Assembly: GCF_004134905.2 (NCBI RefSeq)
Contig: NZ_SDPQ02000003.1
Coordinates: forward strand, 806,001-870,000
Reading direction: 5' to 3'
DNA length: 64,000 nucleotides
Source: Aeromicrobium ginsengisoli
GTDB lineage: Bacteria > Actinomycetota > Actinomycetes > Propionibacteriales > Nocardioidaceae
Shown: one piece after another, positions 32,825 to 45,281 of the stretch
How positions within the stretch are numbered: position 1 is the first letter of the stretch
Layout of the letters: every line of letters begins with the position of its first letter
Notes under the pieces: model-generated
The model's database searches: none
Seen by the model: the letters and a program-made list of their open reading frames with translations, nothing else
Told to the model about the DNA's origin: nothing
Program-made: the position numbers and the translations under genes

Positions 32825-34948
32825 ATGCCCATCGGCGTGACACGTGACGATCTAGAACTGAGTACCAGTTTACGGGCCTGGGCCTCTGGACTGAGTGGCC
32901 CGGTCGCCCTCCGAGACGTCGAGACCGATCCGTCGGCGGCATTCGCGAAGACGTGGCAGGCGGTCGTCGAGGCGGGGCTGCCCGCCATCGGCATCGACGA
33001 GCACCACGGCGGGGGCGAGGGCTCGCTGCTCCATCAGGCGATCGCGCTGGAGGCTGCGGCGTACGCGTTGGTGCCCGGCCCGCTGCTCGGCACGGTGCTC
33101 GTCGGCCAGCTCACCGAGGACGGTGACGTGCTGGCCGGGATCGCCGGCGGTGCGAGCGCAGCGGTGGCCTTGTCAGGTGCGGTCACGGTCGACGCCGATG
33201 GCGCTCGAGCAGACTTCGACGTCGTGCTCGATGTGGTCGAGGCGCGCTGGCTGCTCGCCCGTACGACCGACGACGCGTGGGTGTTGATCGGTGCCGACGG
33301 CTGGCGCGCAGAGCCCGAGGTCGGGCTCGACCTGTCGCGGCGGGGCGGGCGCGTGCGTGTGGAGGCGACGACCGATCAAGTCGTGCCGCTGCCGGGCGTC
33401 GACCGCGACGCGGTGCTGCGGGTTCTCGTGGCGCTGGCCGCCGCGGAGGCTTCCGGTGTCGCGCAATGGTGCCTGGACACCGCTGTCGACTACGCCAAGG
33501 TGCGCGAGCAGTTCGGCGCACCGATCGGGTCATTCCAGGCGATCAAGCAGCTGTGCTCGCAGATGCTGGAGACGACGGAGTCGATCGCGGCCGTCGCGTG
33601 GGATGCCGCCACGACCGCACGGTCGGACGTACCGGCGGGGGAGGCGCAATATGCCGCCGATGTCGCCGCGACGGTGGCGTTCGACGGCGCGGTGTCGGTT
33701 GCGCAGGACTGCATCCAGGTGCTCGGCGGCATCGGGTTCACGTTCGAGCACGATGCGCACCTCTACCTGCGGCGGGCGATCGCGCTGCGGGCCGTCGTGG
33801 AGGCGTTCGCGGGCAGCTCGGAGCAGTCGGCGGCTCGCCTGGCCCGCCGGGCCGGCACCGGGCAGCGCCGGGTGCCCGAGATCGACTTCGGCGGCACGGA
33901 CGAGGAGTTCCGCGCCGCGACGCGCACGGCGATCGAGGGGATCGCTGCGTTGCCCGAAGACCAGCAGCGTGCGGCGCTCGTGGAGTCCGGCTACCTCATG
34001 CCGCACTGGCCGCAGCCCCATGGGCTCGACGCCGGCCCGGTCGAGCAGCTCGTGGTCGACGAGGAGCTGGCGCGTGCCTCGCTCGTACGCCCTGACATCG
34101 CGATCGGCGGCTGGGCCGTGCCGACGATCATCGACCACGGCACCGCGGAGCAGGCTGAGCGCTTCGTCCTGCCGACGCTGCTCGGCGAGCTGAAGTGGTG
34201 CCAGCTGTTCAGCGAGCCCGGCGCAGGCTCCGACCTCGCCTCGCTCACCACCCGGGCCGTACGCGCCGAAGGTGGCTGGTTGCTGACCGGCCAGAAGGTG
34301 TGGACCTCGCGGGCGCGCGAGGCGGACTGGGGCATCTGCCTGGCTCGCACCGACCGCGACGCCCGCCATCGCGGCATCACGTACTTCCTCGTCGACATGA
34401 CCTCCGCCGGCATCGACATCCGGCCGCTGCGCGAGCTGACCGGCGACGCGATGTTCAACGAGGTGTTTCTCGACGAGGTCTTCGTGCCCGACGAGTGCGT
34501 CGTGGGCGAGGTCAACGAGGGCTGGAAGCTCGCCCGCACGACGCTGGCCAACGAGCGCGTCGCGATGGCCGGCAGCAAGCTCGGCATGAGCACGGAGCGG
34601 GCCGTCGAGCTGTTGGCCGGGCGCGAGTCGGAGACCGACGCGGCGCGAGTCGGCCACCAGGTCGCGCTGGCCTCGGTGTGCCAGCTGCTGGGCGTACGTT
34701 CGACGCTGCGGTCGATCGCCGGGCGTGGTCCCGGCCCGGAGTCGAGCGTGGCGAAGCTGTTGGGCGTACGCAATCGGCAGGACGCCTCTGGGCTCGTCGT
34801 CGACCTGCTGGGTCCTGCGGCGCTGTTCACGCCCGACGATCCCGACGTGCACGAGATGCTGCTGACGCGCTGCCTGTCGATCGCGGGCGGGACGACGCAG
34901 ATCCTGCGCAACGTCGTCGCCGAACGGGTGCTCGGCCTGCCCCGCTGA
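32825..34948 (+). CDS. fadE34: two-domain acyl-CoA dehydrogenase, FadE34 type
   Basis: 707 residues from the ATG at 32825 behind GGAGGCGAC. The chain consists of two acyl-CoA dehydrogenase units. The first (about 1-340) has GIDEHHGGGEGSLLHQAIALEAAA and an AQDCIQVLGGIGFTFEHDAHLYLRRA segment. The second (about 350-707) has CQLFSEPGAGSDLASLTTRAVR, GQKVWTSRAREADWGICLARTD and a final SIAGGTTQILRNVVAERVLGLPR. Length and location beside kstR match mycobacterial FadE34 (ChsE3), which dehydrogenates the C5 side chain of steroid CoA thioesters with FAD. Its stop is one base from that of the convergent hydrolase gene. Confidence 0.88.
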   Translation: MPIGVTRDDLELSTSLRAWASGLSGPVALRDVETDPSAAFAKTWQAVVEAGLPAIGIDEHHGGGEGSLLHQAIALEAAAYALVPGPLLGTVLVGQLTEDGDVLAGIAGGASAAVALSGAVTVDADGARADFDVVLDVVEARWLLARTTDDAWVLIGADGWRAEPEVGLDLSRRGGRVRVEATTDQVVPLPGVDRDAVLRVLVALAAAEASGVAQWCLDTAVDYAKVREQFGAPIGSFQAIKQLCSQMLETTESIAAVAWDAATTARSDVPAGEAQYAADVAATVAFDGAVSVAQDCIQVLGGIGFTFEHDAHLYLRRAIALRAVVEAFAGSSEQSAARLARRAGTGQRRVPEIDFGGTDEEFRAATRTAIEGIAALPEDQQRAALVESGYLMPHWPQPHGLDAGPVEQLVVDEELARASLVRPDIAIGGWAVPTIIDHGTAEQAERFVLPTLLGELKWCQLFSEPGAGSDLASLTTRAVRAEGGWLLTGQKVWTSRAREADWGICLARTDRDARHRGITYFLVDMTSAGIDIRPLRELTGDAMFNEVFLDEVFVPDECVVGEVNEGWKLARTTLANERVAMAGSKLGMSTERAVELLAGRESETDAARVGHQVALASVCQLLGVRSTLRSIAGRGPGPESSVAKLLGVRNRQDASGLVVDLLGPAALFTPDDPDVHEMLLTRCLSIAGGTTQILRNVVAERVLGLPR

Positions 34949-37668: not shown

Positions 37669-38613
37669 TCAGGCCGGTTGCGGTTTGCGCATCCTGGCTG
37701 AGGTGGTGAGGGCGGCGTCGAGGAGGGCCGGGACGAACTCCTTGTGCTCCAGCACGCAGCCGGCGTGGCCGCAGGCCGCCTCGTGGATCGTCGCGCCGGG
37801 GATGCGGGCGGCGAGGTCGCGCTGGCGGTCGGGCGGGATCACGTGGTCGTTGGTGGTGACGACGACGGCGGTCGGTACGTCCACCCGCTCCAGCCACAGT
37901 GTCGAGTGATGGCGCCCCAGCGACGCCACGGCCTGGCCGACGGCCCACGGGCTGCTCGACCGCCACTGCTTCAGCGCCCAACCCGCGGTGTCGGAGCTGC
38001 CGGTCTCGATCTCCTCAGCGGCGGCCGTGCTGGCCCGGCGTACGACGCGGGAGCGGGACAGCGTCGCGGTCAGCCCCATGCCCAGAGCCATACCGGTGTG
38101 GAACACGCGCTCCCGGCCATTCGTACGGAAGTGCGCCGTGGTGGCGGCGAGGACGAGTCCACCGACGGCGTCGGGATGCTGGCGCCACACGCGCTGCGCG
38201 ATGACCGAGCCCATCGAGTAGCCGGCGATGATCGGCCGGTCGAGCCCGAGCGTGTCGATCACGGCAGCGACGTCATCGGCGCAGTCGGAGATCAGGAACC
38301 GCTCGGACGTGATGCCCCGCCCGTGCCACCGCTGGTCGAACGCGATGACGCGGTAGTGCTGAGCCAGCACGGGGATCGCCGGGAACCAGGTCAGCTGGCC
38401 CGTGCAGCCCACCGCGTGGAGCAGGACGATAGCGGGTGCATCGGGGGTCGGACCGGGTACGTCCGTCAGCCACGTACGACCGCGCCGGGGGAGGTCCAGC
38501 CAGCGGCCCTCCGGCAGGTCGACGGGCGGCAGGTCGAACAGGTCCCACGTCGACGGGTCGGGCAGGAGGTGCCGCAGCGCCCCCAGGGGCAGCAGCGTGA
38601 CCGGGTTCCGCAC
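37669..38613 (-). CDS. alpha/beta hydrolase
   Basis: 314 residues from the GTG at 38613, preceded by AGGAGGAACC, an excellent binding site. The fold is shown by IVLLHAVGCTGQLTWFPAI (oxyanion region), RVIAFDQRWHGRG, IIAGYSMGSVIAQRV with the nucleophile in GYSMGS, and the late Asp and His in VVTTNDHVIPPD and EAACGHAGCVLEH. It resembles non-haem esterases of lipid degradation. A KstR operator lies 33 nt upstream and is shared with the divergent fadE28-fadE29 fusion gene. The substrate is unknown. Confidence 0.82.
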   Translation of the reverse strand: MRNPVTLLPLGALRHLLPDPSTWDLFDLPPVDLPEGRWLDLPRRGRTWLTDVPGPTPDAPAIVLLHAVGCTGQLTWFPAIPVLAQHYRVIAFDQRWHGRGITSERFLISDCADDVAAVIDTLGLDRPIIAGYSMGSVIAQRVWRQHPDAVGGLVLAATTAHFRTNGRERVFHTGMALGMGLTATLSRSRVVRRASTAAAEEIETGSSDTAGWALKQWRSSSPWAVGQAVASLGRHHSTLWLERVDVPTAVVVTTNDHVIPPDRQRDLAARIPGATIHEAACGHAGCVLEHKEFVPALLDAALTTSARMRKPQPA

Positions 38614-38645: not shown

Positions 38646-38659
38646 TAGAACACGTTATA
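38646..38659. promoter_or_regulatory. KstR-type operator before the igr-type operon
   Basis: TAGAACACGTTATA fits TnnAACnnGTTnnA with one arm mismatch in symmetry. It lies 40 nt before the GTG of the fused FadE28-FadE29 gene and 33 nt upstream of the divergent hydrolase gene. Confidence 0.83.
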
Positions 38660-38698: not shown

Positions 38699-40882
38699 GT
38701 GGACTCGCTGCTCGACGAGGTGTGCTCGGTCATCGCTGATGTGCTCGACCGAGGCGACGGCTCATGGGGTGCGCTGCAGGAGTCCGGGCTGCTGGCGCTG
38801 GCCGCTCCCAAGGAGCTCGGCGGTGAGGGACTCGGCCTGGCCGAGGTCGCCGTGCTGTTGCACGAGGTCGGTCGCCGCGCTTCGGACCTGCCGGTGTGGG
38901 AGACGCTGGCCTGCGGGCTGCTGCCCCTCGTCCGTACGGGCGACGACGCGTTGCAAGCCGACCTCGTCCCCCAGGTGCTCTCGGGTGACCTGCTCCTCGC
39001 TCCGGCACTCGGTGAGCTCGGCTCCGCTCTGCCGCGTGAGCCCGCCACGACGTACGACGGACAGGGCGTGACCGGCACCAAGATCGGCGTGCCGGTGCTG
39101 GACGGGAAGACCTTGCTGCTGGTCCCTTCGACAAGCTCAGGGAGCGGTGAAGTCGGCGTCGTCATCGTCGATCCCGACGGACCCGGCGTGACCCGGGTCG
39201 AGACCGCGACCTCGCGCGGCACCACCGAGGCGACGTACACCTTCACCTCGGCGCCCGCGCTTGGGACGCTCGACGCCGACGTCGTCCGCAACCACGCGAT
39301 CGCGGGGCTGGCCGCCCTCGGCGCCGGTCTCGTCGAGGGGGCGCGTGACCTGACCGCGGGCTACATCCGCGATCGCCGGCAGTTCGGCCGCTCGCTGGCG
39401 GAGTTCCAGGCGGTGGCGCAGCAGATCGCCGACGTCTACGTCGCCTCGCGGACGTTCACGCTGACCGCAGCCGAGACCGTACGCCGCCTCGATGCCGGTG
39501 ACCCCGCCGCTGACGACCTGGCCGTCGCTGCGCACTGGTTCGCCGATCGGGCGTCGACCGTGTTGCAGACCTGCCAGCACCTGCACGGCGGCATGGGCGT
39601 CGATGTGACCTATCCGCTCAACGGCTACTTCTCGGGCGTACGCGATGTGGCCCGTCACCTCGGTGGGCCGGCCGCGCTGGCCGAGGTGCCGGTCGCGGAG
39701 ACCGCCGGCAAGAACGCCGAGCTGACGGCTGAGGAGCGCGCGTTCAAGGAGGAGGTGCGCGCCTATCTCACCGGCCTGGCGACCGATGCCGACCGCGACG
39801 AGATGCGTCACGACCGGCACGGCCCGGCGTACCACCGCGTCATCAAGCAGATGGGCGCCGACGGGTGGATGGGTGTCGGCTGGCCCAAGGAGTACGGCGG
39901 CCAGGGTCGCGGCGTCATCGAGCAGCAGGTGTTCGTCAACGAGGCGGCGCGTGCGGACGTGCACCTGCCGTCGGTGACCCTGCAGACCGTCGGGCCGACC
40001 CTGCAGGCGTACGGGACGCAGAAGCAGAAGGACATGTTCCTCGCCGACATCGTGACCGGCGACGTGCACTTCGCGATCGGCTACAGCGAGCCCGACGCCG
40101 GCACCGACCTCGCGTCGATGCGCACCAGCGCCCGGCGCGACGGCGACCACTACGTCGTCAACGGGCAGAAGATGTGGACGACCGGCGGCCATGCTGCGGA
40201 CTACGTGTGGCTTGCCGTCCGCACCGATCCGGATGCGCCGCCGCACCGCGGCATCTCGGTGCTCATCGTCGACACCCGTGACCCCGGCTTCTCGTGGACG
40301 CCGATCACGACGAGCGACGGCTCGCACCACACCAACGCGACGTACTACAACGACGTACGTGTGCCGGTCGACATGCTGGTCGGCGAGGAGAACCGCGGTT
40401 GGCAGCTCATCACGACGCAGCTCAACCACGAGCGGGTCATGCTCGGGCCGGCCGGTCGCGTCGAGGGGCTGCGCGACCTGGTGCGAGCCTGGGCCGAAGG
40501 TCGCGAGGGTCCGGGCGGCGTGCCGCTGCTCGAGGTGCCCCAGGTGCGCGACGTGCTGGCGCGGGCGACGGCGTCGTTCCGGGTCAACGAGCTGATCAAC
40601 TGGGCGGTCGCGCGGGGTGCGTCGTCGGATCGTGCTGCGGTGGCTGACGCGTCGACGTCCAAGGTGTTCGCCAGCGACGAGGTGCAGCGGCTCGGGCTGG
40701 CGCTGATGGACGTCGTCACGACGTACGGCGATCCGGCCGATCCGGCGACGGGACGGCTCGTGGAGTATCTCGACGCGACCAGCAAGCGCAACCTCGTGCT
40801 CAGCTTCGGCGGCGGGGTCAACGAGGTGCAGCGTGAGCTGATCGCGATGTTCGGCCTGGACCTGCCGCGGGTGCCGCGATGA
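38699..40882 (+). CDS. fused FadE28-FadE29 type acyl-CoA dehydrogenase (ChsE1-ChsE2)
   Basis: 727 residues from the GTG at 38699, behind GAAGGAG. Residues 1 to about 335 resemble FadE28 (LDEVCSVIADVLDR, GLVEGARDLTAGYIRDRRQFGRSLAEFQAV, LQTCQHLHGGMGVDVTYPL). From about 340 the chain resembles FadE29 (ELTAEERAFKEEVRAYL, WPKEYGGQGRGVIEQQVF, GYSEPDAGTDLASMRTSARRDG, GQKMWTTGGHAADYVW). In mycobacteria these are two proteins forming a heterotetramer that desaturates the propionyl side chain of 3-OPC-CoA. Here the order is the same but in one chain. A dispersed repeat adds LVPSTSSGSGE inside the first half. Confidence 0.85.
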   Translation: MDSLLDEVCSVIADVLDRGDGSWGALQESGLLALAAPKELGGEGLGLAEVAVLLHEVGRRASDLPVWETLACGLLPLVRTGDDALQADLVPQVLSGDLLLAPALGELGSALPREPATTYDGQGVTGTKIGVPVLDGKTLLLVPSTSSGSGEVGVVIVDPDGPGVTRVETATSRGTTEATYTFTSAPALGTLDADVVRNHAIAGLAALGAGLVEGARDLTAGYIRDRRQFGRSLAEFQAVAQQIADVYVASRTFTLTAAETVRRLDAGDPAADDLAVAAHWFADRASTVLQTCQHLHGGMGVDVTYPLNGYFSGVRDVARHLGGPAALAEVPVAETAGKNAELTAEERAFKEEVRAYLTGLATDADRDEMRHDRHGPAYHRVIKQMGADGWMGVGWPKEYGGQGRGVIEQQVFVNEAARADVHLPSVTLQTVGPTLQAYGTQKQKDMFLADIVTGDVHFAIGYSEPDAGTDLASMRTSARRDGDHYVVNGQKMWTTGGHAADYVWLAVRTDPDAPPHRGISVLIVDTRDPGFSWTPITTSDGSHHTNATYYNDVRVPVDMLVGEENRGWQLITTQLNHERVMLGPAGRVEGLRDLVRAWAEGREGPGGVPLLEVPQVRDVLARATASFRVNELINWAVARGASSDRAAVADASTSKVFASDEVQRLGLALMDVVTTYGDPADPATGRLVEYLDATSKRNLVLSFGGGVNEVQRELIAMFGLDLPRVPR
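39123..39149 (-). repeat. in-frame dispersed repeat inside the FadE28-like half
   Basis: CCCTTCGACAAGCTCAGGGA is the reverse orientation of the TTGAGCTTGTCGAA family. It is translated as VPSTSSGSG at about residues 142-150 of the fused dehydrogenase, probably in a surface loop, and keeps the frame open. Confidence 0.65.
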
Positions 40883-40970
40883 GCGAGCGCCAGCGAGCGA
40901 ACAATCGGCGCACCATCGAGGTGCCGCCGTACTCTTTGCCCTTCATTACGGCGGTGCCGCGATGAGCGAG
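40870..40970 (+). repeat. 18-bp direct repeat flanking a short insert between fadE and chsH genes
   Basis: GGTGCCGCGATGAGCGAG occurs at 40870-40887 and again at 40953-40970, 83 bp apart. The second copy contains the start codon of the hydratase gene, the first contains the stop of the dehydrogenase gene as an ATGA overlap. Removing one unit would restore the usual overlapping stop and start. The insert begins TGAGCGAGCGCCAGCGAGCG, which matches another stop-codon-associated repeat at 59340-59361. Confidence 0.7.
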
Positions 40971-42248
40971 AGCGAGATCATCGCGCGGACCGACGAGATC
41001 AAGGCGCGCGGCAAGAGTCCGGCCCGCGTGGCCCCGGATCCCGTGAACGTGCCGATGATCCGGCACTGGGCCGAGGCGATCGGCGACACCAACCCGCGGT
41101 GGGCGCCCGGCCCCGACACCGAGGCGCCGCCGGCGATGGCGCAGGTGTGGACGATGTACGGGCTCAACCCCGAGCGCATGCCCGGCGACCCGCTGCCCGA
41201 CACGATGCAGGTCCTCGACGACGCCGGCTTCACGTCGGTGCTGGGCACCAACTGCGACCAGACCTACGCGCGTACGTTGCGGCCCGGCGAGGTGCCGAGC
41301 ATCAGCACGTACCTCGCAGACGTCGTCGGCCCCAAGAAGACCGGTGTCGGCGAGGGCTGGTTCATCACGACCAAGAGCGTGTGGACCGTCGGCGACGAAG
41401 AGGTCGCGACGATGACGTTCCGCGTGCTCAAGTTCAAGCCCGGCACGGGCCGCCCCGCGGTGGACCCGACGAAGACGCTGCGTCCGGTGGTCAACCGCGA
41501 CACCGAGTTCTTCTGGGCGGGCACCGCTGCCGGCGAGCTGCGCATCCAGACGTGCAACGCGTGTGGCGAGCTGCGGCACCCTCCGGGGCCGGTGTGCCCG
41601 GTGTGCCACGCGATGGATCGCGGGTACGTGGTGGCGTCGGGTCGCGGCAAGGTGCACTCGTTCCTCGTGCACCATGCGCCTGCTGTGCCGGGCAAGCGGC
41701 TGCCGCTGACGCTGGCGCTGGTCGAGCTCGACGAGGGCGTCCGCATGGTCGGCGAGGTCGACGGAGACGTGGCGATCGGCGACGCCGTCGAGGTGTGGTT
41801 CGACCGCATCGACGACGACCTCACGCTGGCGAAGTGGCGCCCGGTTGGGGCACCGGTGCCGTCAGTCGCGTCGGAGCCGGAGTCCGACCTGCCGGTCTGG
41901 GAGCTGCCGATCACGCCGACGCTCGTCGTGTCGACGGCGCTCGCCACCCGCGACTTCCAGGACGTCCACCACGACCGTGACCGGTCGATCGGCCACGGCA
42001 GCAAGGACATCTTCATCAACATCCTCAGCACGACCGGTCTGGTGCAGCGGTATGTCACCGACTGGGCCGGCCCGCAGACGCAGATCCTGTCGTGCGCGCT
42101 GAGGCTCGGCGCGCCCGCGCATCCGTACGACACCTTGCGGTTCACCGGCACGATCGTGTCGGAGGCCGACGGGGTGACGACCCTCGACGTGAGGGCCGAC
42201 GTCTCGATCGGCACGCATGCCAACGCCCGACTGGAGATCCGCCGATGA
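40962..42248 (+). CDS. fused ChsH2-ChsH1 type steroid enoyl-CoA hydratase (MaoC-DUF35-MaoC)
   Basis: 428 residues from the ATG at 40962. Residues 1 to about 170 are a MaoC-like half (VPMIRHWAEAIGDTNPRWAP). About 180-300 form a DUF35 domain with a zinc ribbon of four cysteines (C198, C201, C212, C215). About 315-428 are a second MaoC domain with the hydratase residues D331 and H336 in RDFQDVHHDRD. In Mycobacterium, ChsH2 (MaoC-DUF35) and ChsH1 (MaoC) are separate subunits of the hydratase acting after ChsE1-ChsE2; their summed length is close to this fusion. DUF35 also docks Ltp2, whose gene follows with an ATGA overlap. Confidence 0.87.
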   Translation: MSESEIIARTDEIKARGKSPARVAPDPVNVPMIRHWAEAIGDTNPRWAPGPDTEAPPAMAQVWTMYGLNPERMPGDPLPDTMQVLDDAGFTSVLGTNCDQTYARTLRPGEVPSISTYLADVVGPKKTGVGEGWFITTKSVWTVGDEEVATMTFRVLKFKPGTGRPAVDPTKTLRPVVNRDTEFFWAGTAAGELRIQTCNACGELRHPPGPVCPVCHAMDRGYVVASGRGKVHSFLVHHAPAVPGKRLPLTLALVELDEGVRMVGEVDGDVAIGDAVEVWFDRIDDDLTLAKWRPVGAPVPSVASEPESDLPVWELPITPTLVVSTALATRDFQDVHHDRDRSIGHGSKDIFINILSTTGLVQRYVTDWAGPQTQILSCALRLGAPAHPYDTLRFTGTIVSEADGVTTLDVRADVSIGTHANARLEIRR

Positions 42249-43408
42249 CCTTTTCCGGCGCGGCGTCGATCGCCGGGATCGGCGCGACCGAGTTCTCCAA
42301 GGAGTCCGGCCGCTCCGAGCTCCAGCTGTCAGCCGAGGCGACGATCGCTGCGCTGGCCGACGCCGGGCTGACGGCGCCCGACGTCGACGGCCTGGTCACG
42401 TTCACGATGGACACCAGCTCCGAGATCGCCCTGGCGCGAGAGCTCGGGATGGGCGAGCTGCGCTTCTTCAGCCGCATCAACTACGGTGGTGGCGCGGCCT
42501 GCGCGACGGTGCAGCAGGCGGCGATGGCGGTGGCGACCGGCATGGCCGACGTCGTCGTGGCTTATCGCGGGTTCAACGAGCGATCCGGCCAACGCTTCGG
42601 CCAGGTGTCGCTGGGTGCGGCCACGCAGGTCAACACCAACGGGCTCGACAACGCATGGACGTACCCGCACGGGCTGTCGACGCCCGCAGCCACCGTGGCG
42701 ATGCAGGCGCGGCGCTACATGCGCGAGTACGGTGCGACGTCGGCCGACTTCGGCGCGGTTGCCGTGGCGGACCGCAGGCACGCAGCCACCAACCCCGCGG
42801 CGTTCTTCCACGGCAAGCCGATCACGATCGAGGACCACCAGAACAGCCGGATGATCGCCGACCCGTTGCGGCTGCTCGACTGCTGCCAGGAGAGCGACGG
42901 GGCCGTCGCGATCGTCGTCACGTCGACCGAGCGCGCCCGCGACCTGCGAGCCGGCGCCGTGCCGATCGTCGCCGCCGCGCAAGGCAGCGGCGCCGACCAG
43001 TTCGTCATGACGTCGTACTTCCGCGACGACCTCGGCATCCCCGAGATCGGCGTCGTCGGCCGCGACCTGTGGCGGCAGTCCGGGCTGACACCCGACGACA
43101 TCCAGACCGCGGTGCTCTACGACCACTTCACGCCATACGTGCTGATGCAGCTCGAGGAGCTGGGCTTCTGCGGTCGTGGGGAGGCCAAGGACTTCATCGC
43201 CGACGGCGCGATCGAGCTCGGCGGTCGGCTGCCGCTCAACACGCACGGCGGCCAGCTCGGCGAGGCGTACATCCACGGCATGAACGGCATCGCCGAGGCG
43301 GTGCGTCAGCTGCGCGGCACCTCGGTCAACCAGGTCGACGGCGCCGAGCATGTCCTGGTCACCGCCGGCACGGGCGTCCCGACGTCCGGCCTGATCCTCG
43401 GGCAATAG
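42245..43408 (+). CDS. ltp2: steroid side-chain aldolase/thiolase-like lipid transfer protein Ltp2
   Basis: 387 residues from the ATG at 42245. The fold is a thiolase relative (IAGIGATEFSKESGRSELQLSAEA, NYGGGAACATVQQAAMAVATG, HGGQLGEAYIHGMNGIAEAVRQLRG) without the usual catalytic Cys pair. Ltp2 carries out the retro-aldol step that releases propionyl-CoA and the 17-keto steroid, and works in complex with the DUF35 domain of the hydratase. Both partner domains are encoded directly upstream, so the operon covers the full last round of side-chain removal. Confidence 0.88.
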   Translation: MTFSGAASIAGIGATEFSKESGRSELQLSAEATIAALADAGLTAPDVDGLVTFTMDTSSEIALARELGMGELRFFSRINYGGGAACATVQQAAMAVATGMADVVVAYRGFNERSGQRFGQVSLGAATQVNTNGLDNAWTYPHGLSTPAATVAMQARRYMREYGATSADFGAVAVADRRHAATNPAAFFHGKPITIEDHQNSRMIADPLRLLDCCQESDGAVAIVVTSTERARDLRAGAVPIVAAAQGSGADQFVMTSYFRDDLGIPEIGVVGRDLWRQSGLTPDDIQTAVLYDHFTPYVLMQLEELGFCGRGEAKDFIADGAIELGGRLPLNTHGGQLGEAYIHGMNGIAEAVRQLRGTSVNQVDGAEHVLVTAGTGVPTSGLILGQ

Positions 43409-44414: not shown

Positions 44415-45281
44415 TCAGCCGCGGCGGGTGACGAGGCAGCCGGCCAGGGCCGGCCGGTCGCCGACCGTCGCGGACACGACGATGCCCTCGGGCTCGTCCC
44501 ACGCGTCGATCGACAGCGTCTCGCCGGGGAACACGACACCGGCGAACCTCGCGGCATACCCGCTGACGGCATGCGCGTCGCCGCCGAGCATGAGGTCGAT
44601 GACCTCGCGGAGCACGATGCCGTACGTGCACCGGCCGTGCAGGATCGGCGCCGGGAAACCGGCCGCCTTCGCGAACTCAGGGTCGGCGTGCAGCGGGTTG
44701 CGGTCGCCGCAGAGCCGGTAGAGCAGCGCCTGCTGCGGCGTCACGGTGTACGTCGTGGAGCCGTCGGGCGAGCGGTCGGGGACCGCCACCGCCGTGCTCT
44801 CGCCGCGGTTGCCGCCCCAGCCGCCCTCACCCTTGACGAAGATCGACGAACGTACGCGCCACAGCTCGGTGCCGCCGGGAGCCGTGGCGACGCCTTCCTG
44901 CCAGATCACGGCCGCCTTGCCCTTGTCCCAGATGTCGGTGATGCGCGTCGTCAGCCGGGCAGAGCCTGACGTCGGCAGCGGGCCGATGACACGCATCTCC
45001 TGGGCCCCGTGCACGACCTGCGCCAGGTTGATGTCGCAGCCGGGCAGGTCGAGCGATGGCGGGTTGGTCTCGTGGAACGACGGCGCGACGACGCCGAAGC
45101 TCGGCAGCACCTGCAGGCGGTCGCCGTCGAGCGTCCAGCGCAGCGCGTCGGCCGAGACGTTGTCGCCCGCGCGGGAGCCGGCGCCGACGGCGAGGTGGTA
45201 GAGCAGTACGTCGCTGGCCTTCCAGGAGAACTCCTGCGTGCCGGTCTCCGCGCCGATGGCGACGCTGGGGTCGATCGGCAT
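44415..45281 (-). CDS. MaoC-type enoyl-CoA hydratase, ChsH3/Hsd4B type
   Basis: 288 residues from the ATG at 45281. It is a double hotdog: an N-terminal half (DVLLYHLAVGAGSRAGDN, LPSFGVVAPSFHE) and a C-terminal half with the hydratase-2 motif LYRLCGDRNPLHADPEFAKAAGFPAPILHGRCTYG, containing the catalytic Asp and His. The N-terminal YHLAVG start and its place directly after kstD match mycobacterial Rv3538 (ChsH3), which hydrates the side-chain enoyl-CoA. It overlaps the kstD stop by one base (TGATG) and should be co-transcribed from the kstD promoter. Confidence 0.87.
   Translation of the reverse strand: MPIDPSVAIGAETGTQEFSWKASDVLLYHLAVGAGSRAGDNVSADALRWTLDGDRLQVLPSFGVVAPSFHETNPPSLDLPGCDINLAQVVHGAQEMRVIGPLPTSGSARLTTRITDIWDKGKAAVIWQEGVATAPGGTELWRVRSSIFVKGEGGWGGNRGESTAVAVPDRSPDGSTTYTVTPQQALLYRLCGDRNPLHADPEFAKAAGFPAPILHGRCTYGIVLREVIDLMLGGDAHAVSGYAARFAGVVFPGETLSIDAWDEPEGIVVSATVGDRPALAGCLVTRRG

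Follow-up and report, generated by a model that had tools for sequence, protein, structure and literature searches.

The igr operon of Mycobacterium encodes two heteromeric enzyme pairs, ChsE1-ChsE2 and ChsH1-ChsH2, as four separate proteins, together with the aldolase Ltp2. A 64,000-nucleotide stretch of DNA from Aeromicrobium ginsengisoli (positions 806,001-870,000 of NZ_SDPQ02000003.1, hereafter called the window; host genome 4.0 Mb, 99.94% complete) raises the question of what becomes of these pairs when each is a single chain. Its operon at 38699-43408 consists of three genes on the + strand, for P0001 (727 residues), P0002 (428 residues) and P0003 (387 residues). It is very probably the cholesterol-type igr operon of the Nocardioidaceae, here Aeromicrobium, serving the last (C3) cycle of sterol side-chain degradation, with P0001 as ChsE1-ChsE2, P0002 as ChsH2-ChsH1 and P0003 as Ltp2. 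These would dehydrogenate and hydrate the side chain and then take off its last propionyl unit by retro-aldol cleavage. A first-pass annotation of the DNA had proposed that each pair is one polypeptide of this length, followed by ltp2, and both the order and the lengths are borne out by the reading frames and domains.

Identity of the fused enzymes

The features of the locus are the following.

38646..38659, + strand: KstR-type operator TAGAACACGTTATA, a predicted site, by motif match 5' of the operon
38699..40882, + strand: P0001, open reading frame (ORF) of 727 residues with a GTG start and AAGGAG upstream of it; fused acyl-coenzyme A dehydrogenase (ACAD) ChsE1-ChsE2, of FadE28-FadE29 type, by domains, PDB matches and model
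38699..39703, + strand: N-terminal ACAD half, ChsE1/FadE28-like, non-catalytic; best PDB match Tcur3481; model residues 1-338 against 6wy8_A, Z 40.8
39719..40879, + strand: C-terminal ACAD half, ChsE2/FadE29-like, with Glu578 (NHER) and FGGG at 703-706
40883..40961, + strand: spacer between P0001 and P0002, 79 nucleotides
40962..42248, + strand: P0002, ORF of 428 residues with an ATG start; fused hydratase ChsH2-ChsH1, MaoC-DUF35-MaoC, by domains, PDB matches and model
40977..41468, + strand: N-terminal MaoC-like domain (MaoC of ChsH2), lacking His at the position taken as that of the catalytic His
41478..41846, + strand: DUF35 domain with four zinc cysteines, Cys198, 201, 212 and 215
41847..41888, + strand: linker from DUF35 to ChsH1, an alignment gap between PDB matches
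41889..42245, + strand: catalytic MaoC domain (ChsH1) with Asp331/His336
42245..43408, + strand: P0003, ORF of 387 residues with an ATG start that overlaps the P0002 stop as ATGA; ltp2 aldolase with Tyr292 (YDHF) and Tyr342

Domain searches divide P0001 into two ACAD halves, with Acyl-CoA_dh_N and Acyl-CoA_dh_1 of Pfam each present in two stretches and Acyl-CoA_dh_M in one; these are domain names only, and no NCBIfam model scored above its cut-off. In a search of PDB chains, the N-terminal half gave 160 bits to Tcur3481 and 112 bits to 4x28_D. The C-terminal (E2) half shares 59-62% identity with the E2 encoded at the same position of the split operons of the mycobacterial group (f4, whose loci fall with named mycobacteria in a 60-operon tree), and is 44% identical to the FadE26-like gene of its own genome. 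Judged by the N-half scores and the E2 identities, the halves of P0001 are closer to FadE28/FadE29 than to FadE26/FadE27. Glu578 of the C-terminal half is conserved in 84/84 loci of the family and aligns with Glu247 of ChsE4, and from this likeness we take it to be the catalytic base. The AlphaFold model of the single chain (predicted local distance difference test, pLDDT, 85.0; predicted template modelling score, pTM, 0.88) resembles Tcur3481 over residues 1-338 and catalytic ACADs over approximately 333-723 (Z 35-38). The N-terminal half would be the non-catalytic partner and the C-terminal half would supply the Glu base; two P0001 chains most likely dimerise, which would reproduce the four-domain arrangement of the heterotetramer in mycobacteria.

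Several observations weigh against this assignment. Among solved chains, the C-terminal half scores higher to 4x28_A (363 bits) than to Tcur3483 (344 bits). The entry 4x28 is the ChsE4-ChsE5 complex of Mycobacterium tuberculosis, and its chain A is presumably ChsE4/FadE26, so that PDB scores alone do not decide between FadE29 and FadE26. The model is weak at 463-474 and 702-705, the genome holds a third ACAD pair (C3:975322-977605, 34-36% identity), and a GTG at 38402 would lengthen the P0001 frame, although this codon lies before the KstR box. Nevertheless, the operon order, the identity to the syntenic E2 and the presence of a separate FadE26/FadE27-like pair outweigh the PDB score, and FadE29 is the preferred label for the C-terminal half.

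That separate pair also bears on the condition under which the first-pass annotation would have given up the equivalence, namely that intact and better-matching genes for the same enzymes lie elsewhere in the genome; the search gave no such refutation. No separate intact copies of the fused genes were found in the rest of this genome, nor was a second ChsH1 or full ChsH2 at E <= 1e-5, DUF35 matches at 31-37% being the only ones. The best paralogous ACAD pair consists of two separate genes with 44% and 34% identity to the halves of P0001. It looks like FadE26/FadE27, because its large subunit gives 517.7 bits to 4x28_A and 377.7 bits to Tcur3483, and because it adjoins genes read from their translations as a putative CoA-ligase and Rieske/KshA-like proteins. 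A FadE26/FadE27 identity was rejected for P0001, since this pair fits it. Another protein with two ACAD domains, P0004 (707 residues, 32825-34948), is encoded in the window itself and is a candidate of FadE34/CasC type; FadE34 is also a fused two-domain ACAD with its base in the C-terminal half only. At the place of the first Gly of FGGG in P0001 and Tcur3483, P0004 has Ala; this is the position changed in the G363A variant of Tcur3483 (6wy9).

P0002 matches, within one chain, the MaoC domain of ChsH2 (residues 6-169), the DUF35 domain of ChsH2 (173-295) and ChsH1 (310-426); here too Pfam names the domains only, and no NCBIfam model reached its cut-off. The pattern is that of ChsH1-ChsH2, an inert MaoC domain and DUF35 followed by a catalytic MaoC domain with Asp/His. 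The Asp/His of ChsH1 and the four zinc cysteines of DUF35 are conserved in 84/84 family loci. The position of the catalytic His in the N-terminal MaoC domain was assigned from the column that is Tyr in f4 ChsH2, and this column is W, F or Y in 84/84 family loci; the His-to-Tyr change is named in PMC11321319. The ChsH1-ChsH2 hydratase is defined as two separate polypeptides, whereas the window has a single ORF of 428 residues, without an internal start led by a Shine-Dalgarno-like site at the junction, so that P0002 is best described as a fused variant. In the window, neither this junction nor that of P0001 shows a start codon preceded by a Shine-Dalgarno-like sequence, and a hidden second product from either is therefore unlikely.

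The AlphaFold model of P0002 (58-row alignment, pLDDT 91.3) can be superposed in a single alignment over residues 9-428, the two MaoC domains included, on known structures of the double hot-dog hydratase type (5i7n, Z 26.9; 4v12, Z 26.4; 1s9c, Z 25.3; root-mean-square deviation 2.5-3.0). DUF35 (173-299) gives an alignment of its own, to 6ok1_B (127 residues, Z 18.4). The linker from MaoC to DUF35 (161-170) is disordered, with a mean pLDDT of 47, and that from DUF35 to ChsH1 (301-310) is middling, at 75. The model fits a pairing of the inert and active MaoC domains in cis as a double hot-dog hydratase, a pseudo-heterodimer from which DUF35 would be looped out and free to dock the separate Ltp2.

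The third protein, P0003, is identified as Ltp2 by NF005892 (692 bits, cut-off 469) and by its match to Ltp2 of T. curvata (6ok1_A, 583 bits). Its Tyr292 and Tyr342 are conserved in 84/84 family loci. Residues 294 and 344 of TcLtp2 are named in PMC12329534, and the two-residue offset suggests that Tyr342 is the counterpart of 344.

The predicted operator at 38646-38659 is a perfect motif match directly ahead of the three genes. The motif searched for, TNNAACNNGTTNNA, is taken here to be that of KstR; a DNA pattern search found 8 matches in the window against 0.09 expected. By this upstream site the operon is a putative member of the KstR regulon. The window also contains a 3-oxosteroid 1-dehydrogenase, HsaE/F/G-type genes and a double-MaoC hydratase (44415-45281), and is thus regarded as a steroid-catabolism cluster.

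Two repeated stretches lie at the locus. A 20-base repeat at 39125-39144, in frame within the ChsE1 half of P0001, occurs at 9 places in the genome (this one included, <=2 mismatches); its reversed control gave 0. The sequence that starts at 40880 is matched at 25 other places in the genome, in nearly every case through its first 22-37 bases. The spacer between P0001 and P0002 has the same length in the nearest relative (L089), and is replaced by a 4-nucleotide overlap in several others, such as L090, L091, L093 and L094.

Distribution and history of the two fusions

The spread of the fusions was followed in 245 genomes of the family, 396 of the phylum and 394 of the class. Stretches mostly of about 7 kb round the operon were taken for 115 loci and 20 more, besides four stretches from the window's own genome, and the domains sharing an ORF were then called. 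Within the family, loci were picked by a match to P0001, which was found in 95/245 genomes; 84 loci were read, the window included. The other 11 matching genomes gave C-half matches only, at <=362 bits, and no family genome fell in the range of 362-753 bits, in which a split E2 would be expected (approximately 460-540 bits in f4). One further Aeromicrobium (g1) genome, G147, with a P0002 match at E 4e-21, lies outside the loci read.

The junction between E1 and E2 lies inside one ORF in all 83 other family loci and in the window. In three of these (L168-L170) the 5' portion of E1 lies in another frame or could not be located, and L171 runs off its contig; the junction is still in one ORF in these four. 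Eight further Aeromicrobium genomes carry the same two fused ORFs, and a sequencing frameshift or artefact was rejected on this ground. Presence of the operon in the genus is patchy: at least 20 of the g1 genomes listed have no match to P0002, and G136 has only a C-half match to P0001, in the FadE26 range.

The hydratase behaves differently. MaoC, DUF35 and MaoC form one ORF in 16/84 family loci, two ORFs (MaoC-DUF35, then ChsH1) in 15/84 and three in 53/84. The single ORF is found in all nine g1 loci (window counted), in 2/3 of group g23, in 5/56 of the Nocardioides-group (g7) and in 0/16 of g5. The three-ORF loci are L104, L107, L114, L115 and 49 among L119-L171, which comprise most g7 loci and four of g5; they have no covalent tie between hydratase and aldolase, and the boundary between MaoC and DUF35 is an overlap of ATGA type in 45/53.

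In the family and in f4 the order is constant. The ACAD stands directly ahead of the ChsH2, ChsH1 and Ltp2 domains in 84/84 family loci and in 13/13 loci of f4, where E1, E2, MaoC-DUF35, ChsH1 and Ltp2 are separate ORFs in that order. The catalytic Glu, the Asp/His and the two Tyr residues are kept in 84/84 family loci and in 14/14 others. Together with the identity of the E2 halves, these observations uphold the suggested equivalence to FadE28/FadE29, ChsH2/ChsH1 and Ltp2, at the level of gene order and residues. The zinc cysteines of DUF35 are missing from ChsH2 in 13/13 f4 loci (L172-L184) and present in 84/84 of the Nocardioidaceae, P0002 among them.

In 19 other loci read, the one-ORF MaoC-DUF35-MaoC was found 0 times. 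The order in 14 of them is E2, H2, E1, H1, Ltp2 (bile-acid, cas type), and the remaining five either lack an E1 or E2 of their own within the stretch or show just the hydratase and Ltp2. Two of the 14 have doubtful joined ORFs, each on one contig of a fragmented, incomplete genome, and were not counted as fusions: in L186 (chsH1-ltp2) the chsH1 match stops after 84 residues, and in L187 (chsH2-chsE1) DUF35 lacks its end and E1 its start. A frameshift, and a deletion or chimera, are the probable causes.

Outside the family, 0/36 genomes matched by P0001 in the phylum sample show an ACAD fusion without a stop. The class sample gave matches in 51 non-family genomes, 33 of them with loci read and the other 18 known from the match row only; E1 and E2 are fused in one of the 33 (G890). 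Mycolicibacter sinensis, M. kumamotonensis and Tsukamurella conjunctivitidis have fused ACADs too; they belong to a set of named loci (the best 80 of at least 585) that favours joined or in-frame pairs and was not used for prevalence. The ACAD linker of G890 is nearly identical to that of Tsukamurella. Outside the family a one-ORF hydratase is found in L221 and L223, two of the 16 loci with a ChsH2 among the 20 loci added for the class, and E1 and E2 are split there. Since these loci combine a one-ORF hydratase with a split ACAD, and other loci a fused ACAD with a split hydratase, each fusion can occur without the other; their spread differs as well, and treating them as one trait, as the first-pass annotation did, is not upheld.

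Both pairs have also been joined or separated more than once among related bacteria. On a tree of E1, E2 and Ltp2 from 60 operons, the ACAD fusion needs three changes (Nocardioidaceae, Tsukamurella and Mycolicibacter), and a single origin was rejected by the approximately unbiased (AU) test (p 3e-51; 26 fused among 60 rows). On a six-domain tree of 97 operons, the fused and split states of the hydratase need four changes, and a single fusion without reversal was rejected (AU p 3e-34 with all 16 fused rows, 6e-55 without the nested pair L127 and L138). The groups tested were named after the trees had been seen, so that the p-values are optimistic. A tree of E1, E2 and Ltp2 and the six-domain tree differ in their deep order. 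By our own count on the six-domain tree, an ancestral fused hydratase that later split and some four fusions within the Nocardioidaceae are equal in cost. In L127 and L138 the last part of the linker resembles the N-terminal stretch of the free ChsH1 proteins of relatives, a feature consistent with late joining of a free ChsH1 gene in these two.

The fusions may have arisen by loss of boundaries between genes that were already adjacent or overlapping. In 58/68 split loci of the family and 13/13 of f4, the DUF35 stop is overlapped by the ChsH1 start (ATGA or GTGA type), and the two are in different frames in 68/68 split family loci, so that a short insertion or deletion could join them. Some split operons (2/13 of f4, others in the class sample) have E1 and E2 in the same frame, interrupted by one stop, and there loss of the stop could do the same. 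The resulting linkers are unlike. In 83 loci the ACAD linker measures 1-6 residues (extrapolated) and usually carries a K-N-x-E-L motif. The linker between DUF35 and ChsH1 measures 9-65 residues in 15 loci and is lineage-specific and often of low complexity. A start codon with a Shine-Dalgarno-like site is present at 0/83 ACAD junctions and at 1/15 hydratase junctions (L138).

Repeats occur in some hydratase linkers. In L102 (genome G040) the linker contains an 11-residue unit, of the type GLDKLDHREAA, in about 5-6 slightly differing copies, which makes it a minisatellite within the fused enzyme, and the linker of L138 is repeated as well.

What fusion may do for the enzymes

Fusion would hold the subunits at 1:1, with the chemistry unchanged. 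Such a ratio is plausible because there is one chain per pair. It is quite possible, if somewhat less than probable, that the fusions bring no selected benefit at all, the boundaries between obligate partners being free to drift. The hydratase speaks for this explanation, for it flips among one, two and three ORFs within one family, its linkers are particular to lineages and often of low complexity, and fused and split states both persist. The ACAD does not fit so well, since its junction is uninterrupted in all 84 family loci, its linker length is nearly fixed and its fusion arose at least three times; for this pair the pattern looks more like constraint than drift.

The first-pass annotation had further suggested that fusion may create a direct channel. 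In one form of this idea the single-chain hydratase sets a fixed geometry with Ltp2, through which the tertiary alcohol would pass from ChsH1 to the aldolase. Some published work is favourable to the idea: the unfavourable hydration is pulled by the aldolase (PMC8399759), channelling between ChsH1-ChsH2 and Ltp2 is posed as an open question in PMC12329534, and the authors of the work on Comamonas TA441 state that efficient removal depends on the proper formation of each enzyme complex (PMC12502768). However, Ltp2 remains a separate protein, and even the split operons have it tied to ChsH2 through DUF35. The P0002 linkers are disordered or middling in the model, and the second varies widely in length among relatives. 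DUF35 is separate from the hydratase, without any covalent tie, in the 53 three-ORF loci. In addition, the related Shy-Sal complex lets 93 +/- 1% of the hydrated product escape (PMC12329534), and the MaoC and DUF35 proteins of TA441, expressed apart, keep both activities (PMC12502768). It is thus very doubtful that fusion establishes a channel, and just as doubtful that a one-chain hydratase held at fixed reach from Ltp2 raises the transfer of the tertiary alcohol while relatives with a free DUF35 release it; if this were true, evolution within the Nocardioidaceae would have given rise to a tight, a loose and an untethered form of the same complex.

Least probable of all is that the fused ACAD serves the C8 or C5 cycle (FadE26/FadE27 or FadE34/CasC type) instead of C3: the top score to ChsE4 and the fused two-domain architecture of CasC (PMC8399759) speak for it, but the invariable place of P0001-type proteins directly before the ChsH2, ChsH1 and Ltp2 domains, the likeness of the E2 half to the syntenic E2 of f4, and the FadE26/FadE27-like pair and P0004 in the same genome make it highly improbable.

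Known systems and the meaning of the fusions

As a ChsE1-ChsE2, ChsH2-ChsH1 and Ltp2 operon of the C3 cycle, the locus shares gene order, domains, catalytic residues and a KstR-type operator with the mycobacterial igr operon, and differs in having two proteins where Mycobacterium has four. The same operon is found in Nocardioides (Pimelobacter) simplex as KR76_12325-12345, with the hydratase as three ORFs in place of one; in P. simplex ATCC 6946 (L266), E1-E2 is in one ORF. In N. simplex VKM Ac-2033D the operon belongs to the KstR regulon and phytosterol induces 4/5 of its genes (PMC7807495). In the table of that paper the ACAD is listed as chsE2 only, and neither "fused" nor "fusion" appears in the main text. 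No published account of a ChsE1-ChsE2 or ChsH2-ChsH1 fusion was found in the open-licence literature, and the same literature yielded nothing on fused FadE34 or on Tcur3481.

Each kind of fusion has a precedent. CasC of R. jostii and FadE34/ChsE3 have two ACAD domains per chain, like P0001, and in CasC the catalytic base is in the C-terminal half only (PMC8399759); however, these are C5 side-chain enzymes of another subfamily, whose likely counterpart is P0004 and not P0001. ChsH3, CasD, CasQ and MFE-2 hydratase 2 have the same double hot-dog fold as the P0002 model, and in the first three, two distinct MaoC domains are fused in one chain (PMC11321319). They differ in having no DUF35 between the MaoC domains and in acting on substrates of C5 or longer. 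Another close system is the T. curvata Ltp2-ChsH2(DUF35) complex (6ok1), whose Ltp2 and DUF35 are close relatives of those of P0003 and P0002, but which was solved without the hydratase domains.

Within the Nocardioidaceae, homologous operons encode the same six domains as three, four or five proteins, a natural series of one-, two- and three-ORF hydratases. Comparing its members would put tethering to the test with no need to engineer the proteins. As defined 1:1 complexes, the single-chain forms should also be more convenient to produce, both for structures and for steroid biocatalysis. Finally, the repeated independent fusion supports, from genomes alone, the view that the partners of each enzyme pair work side by side.

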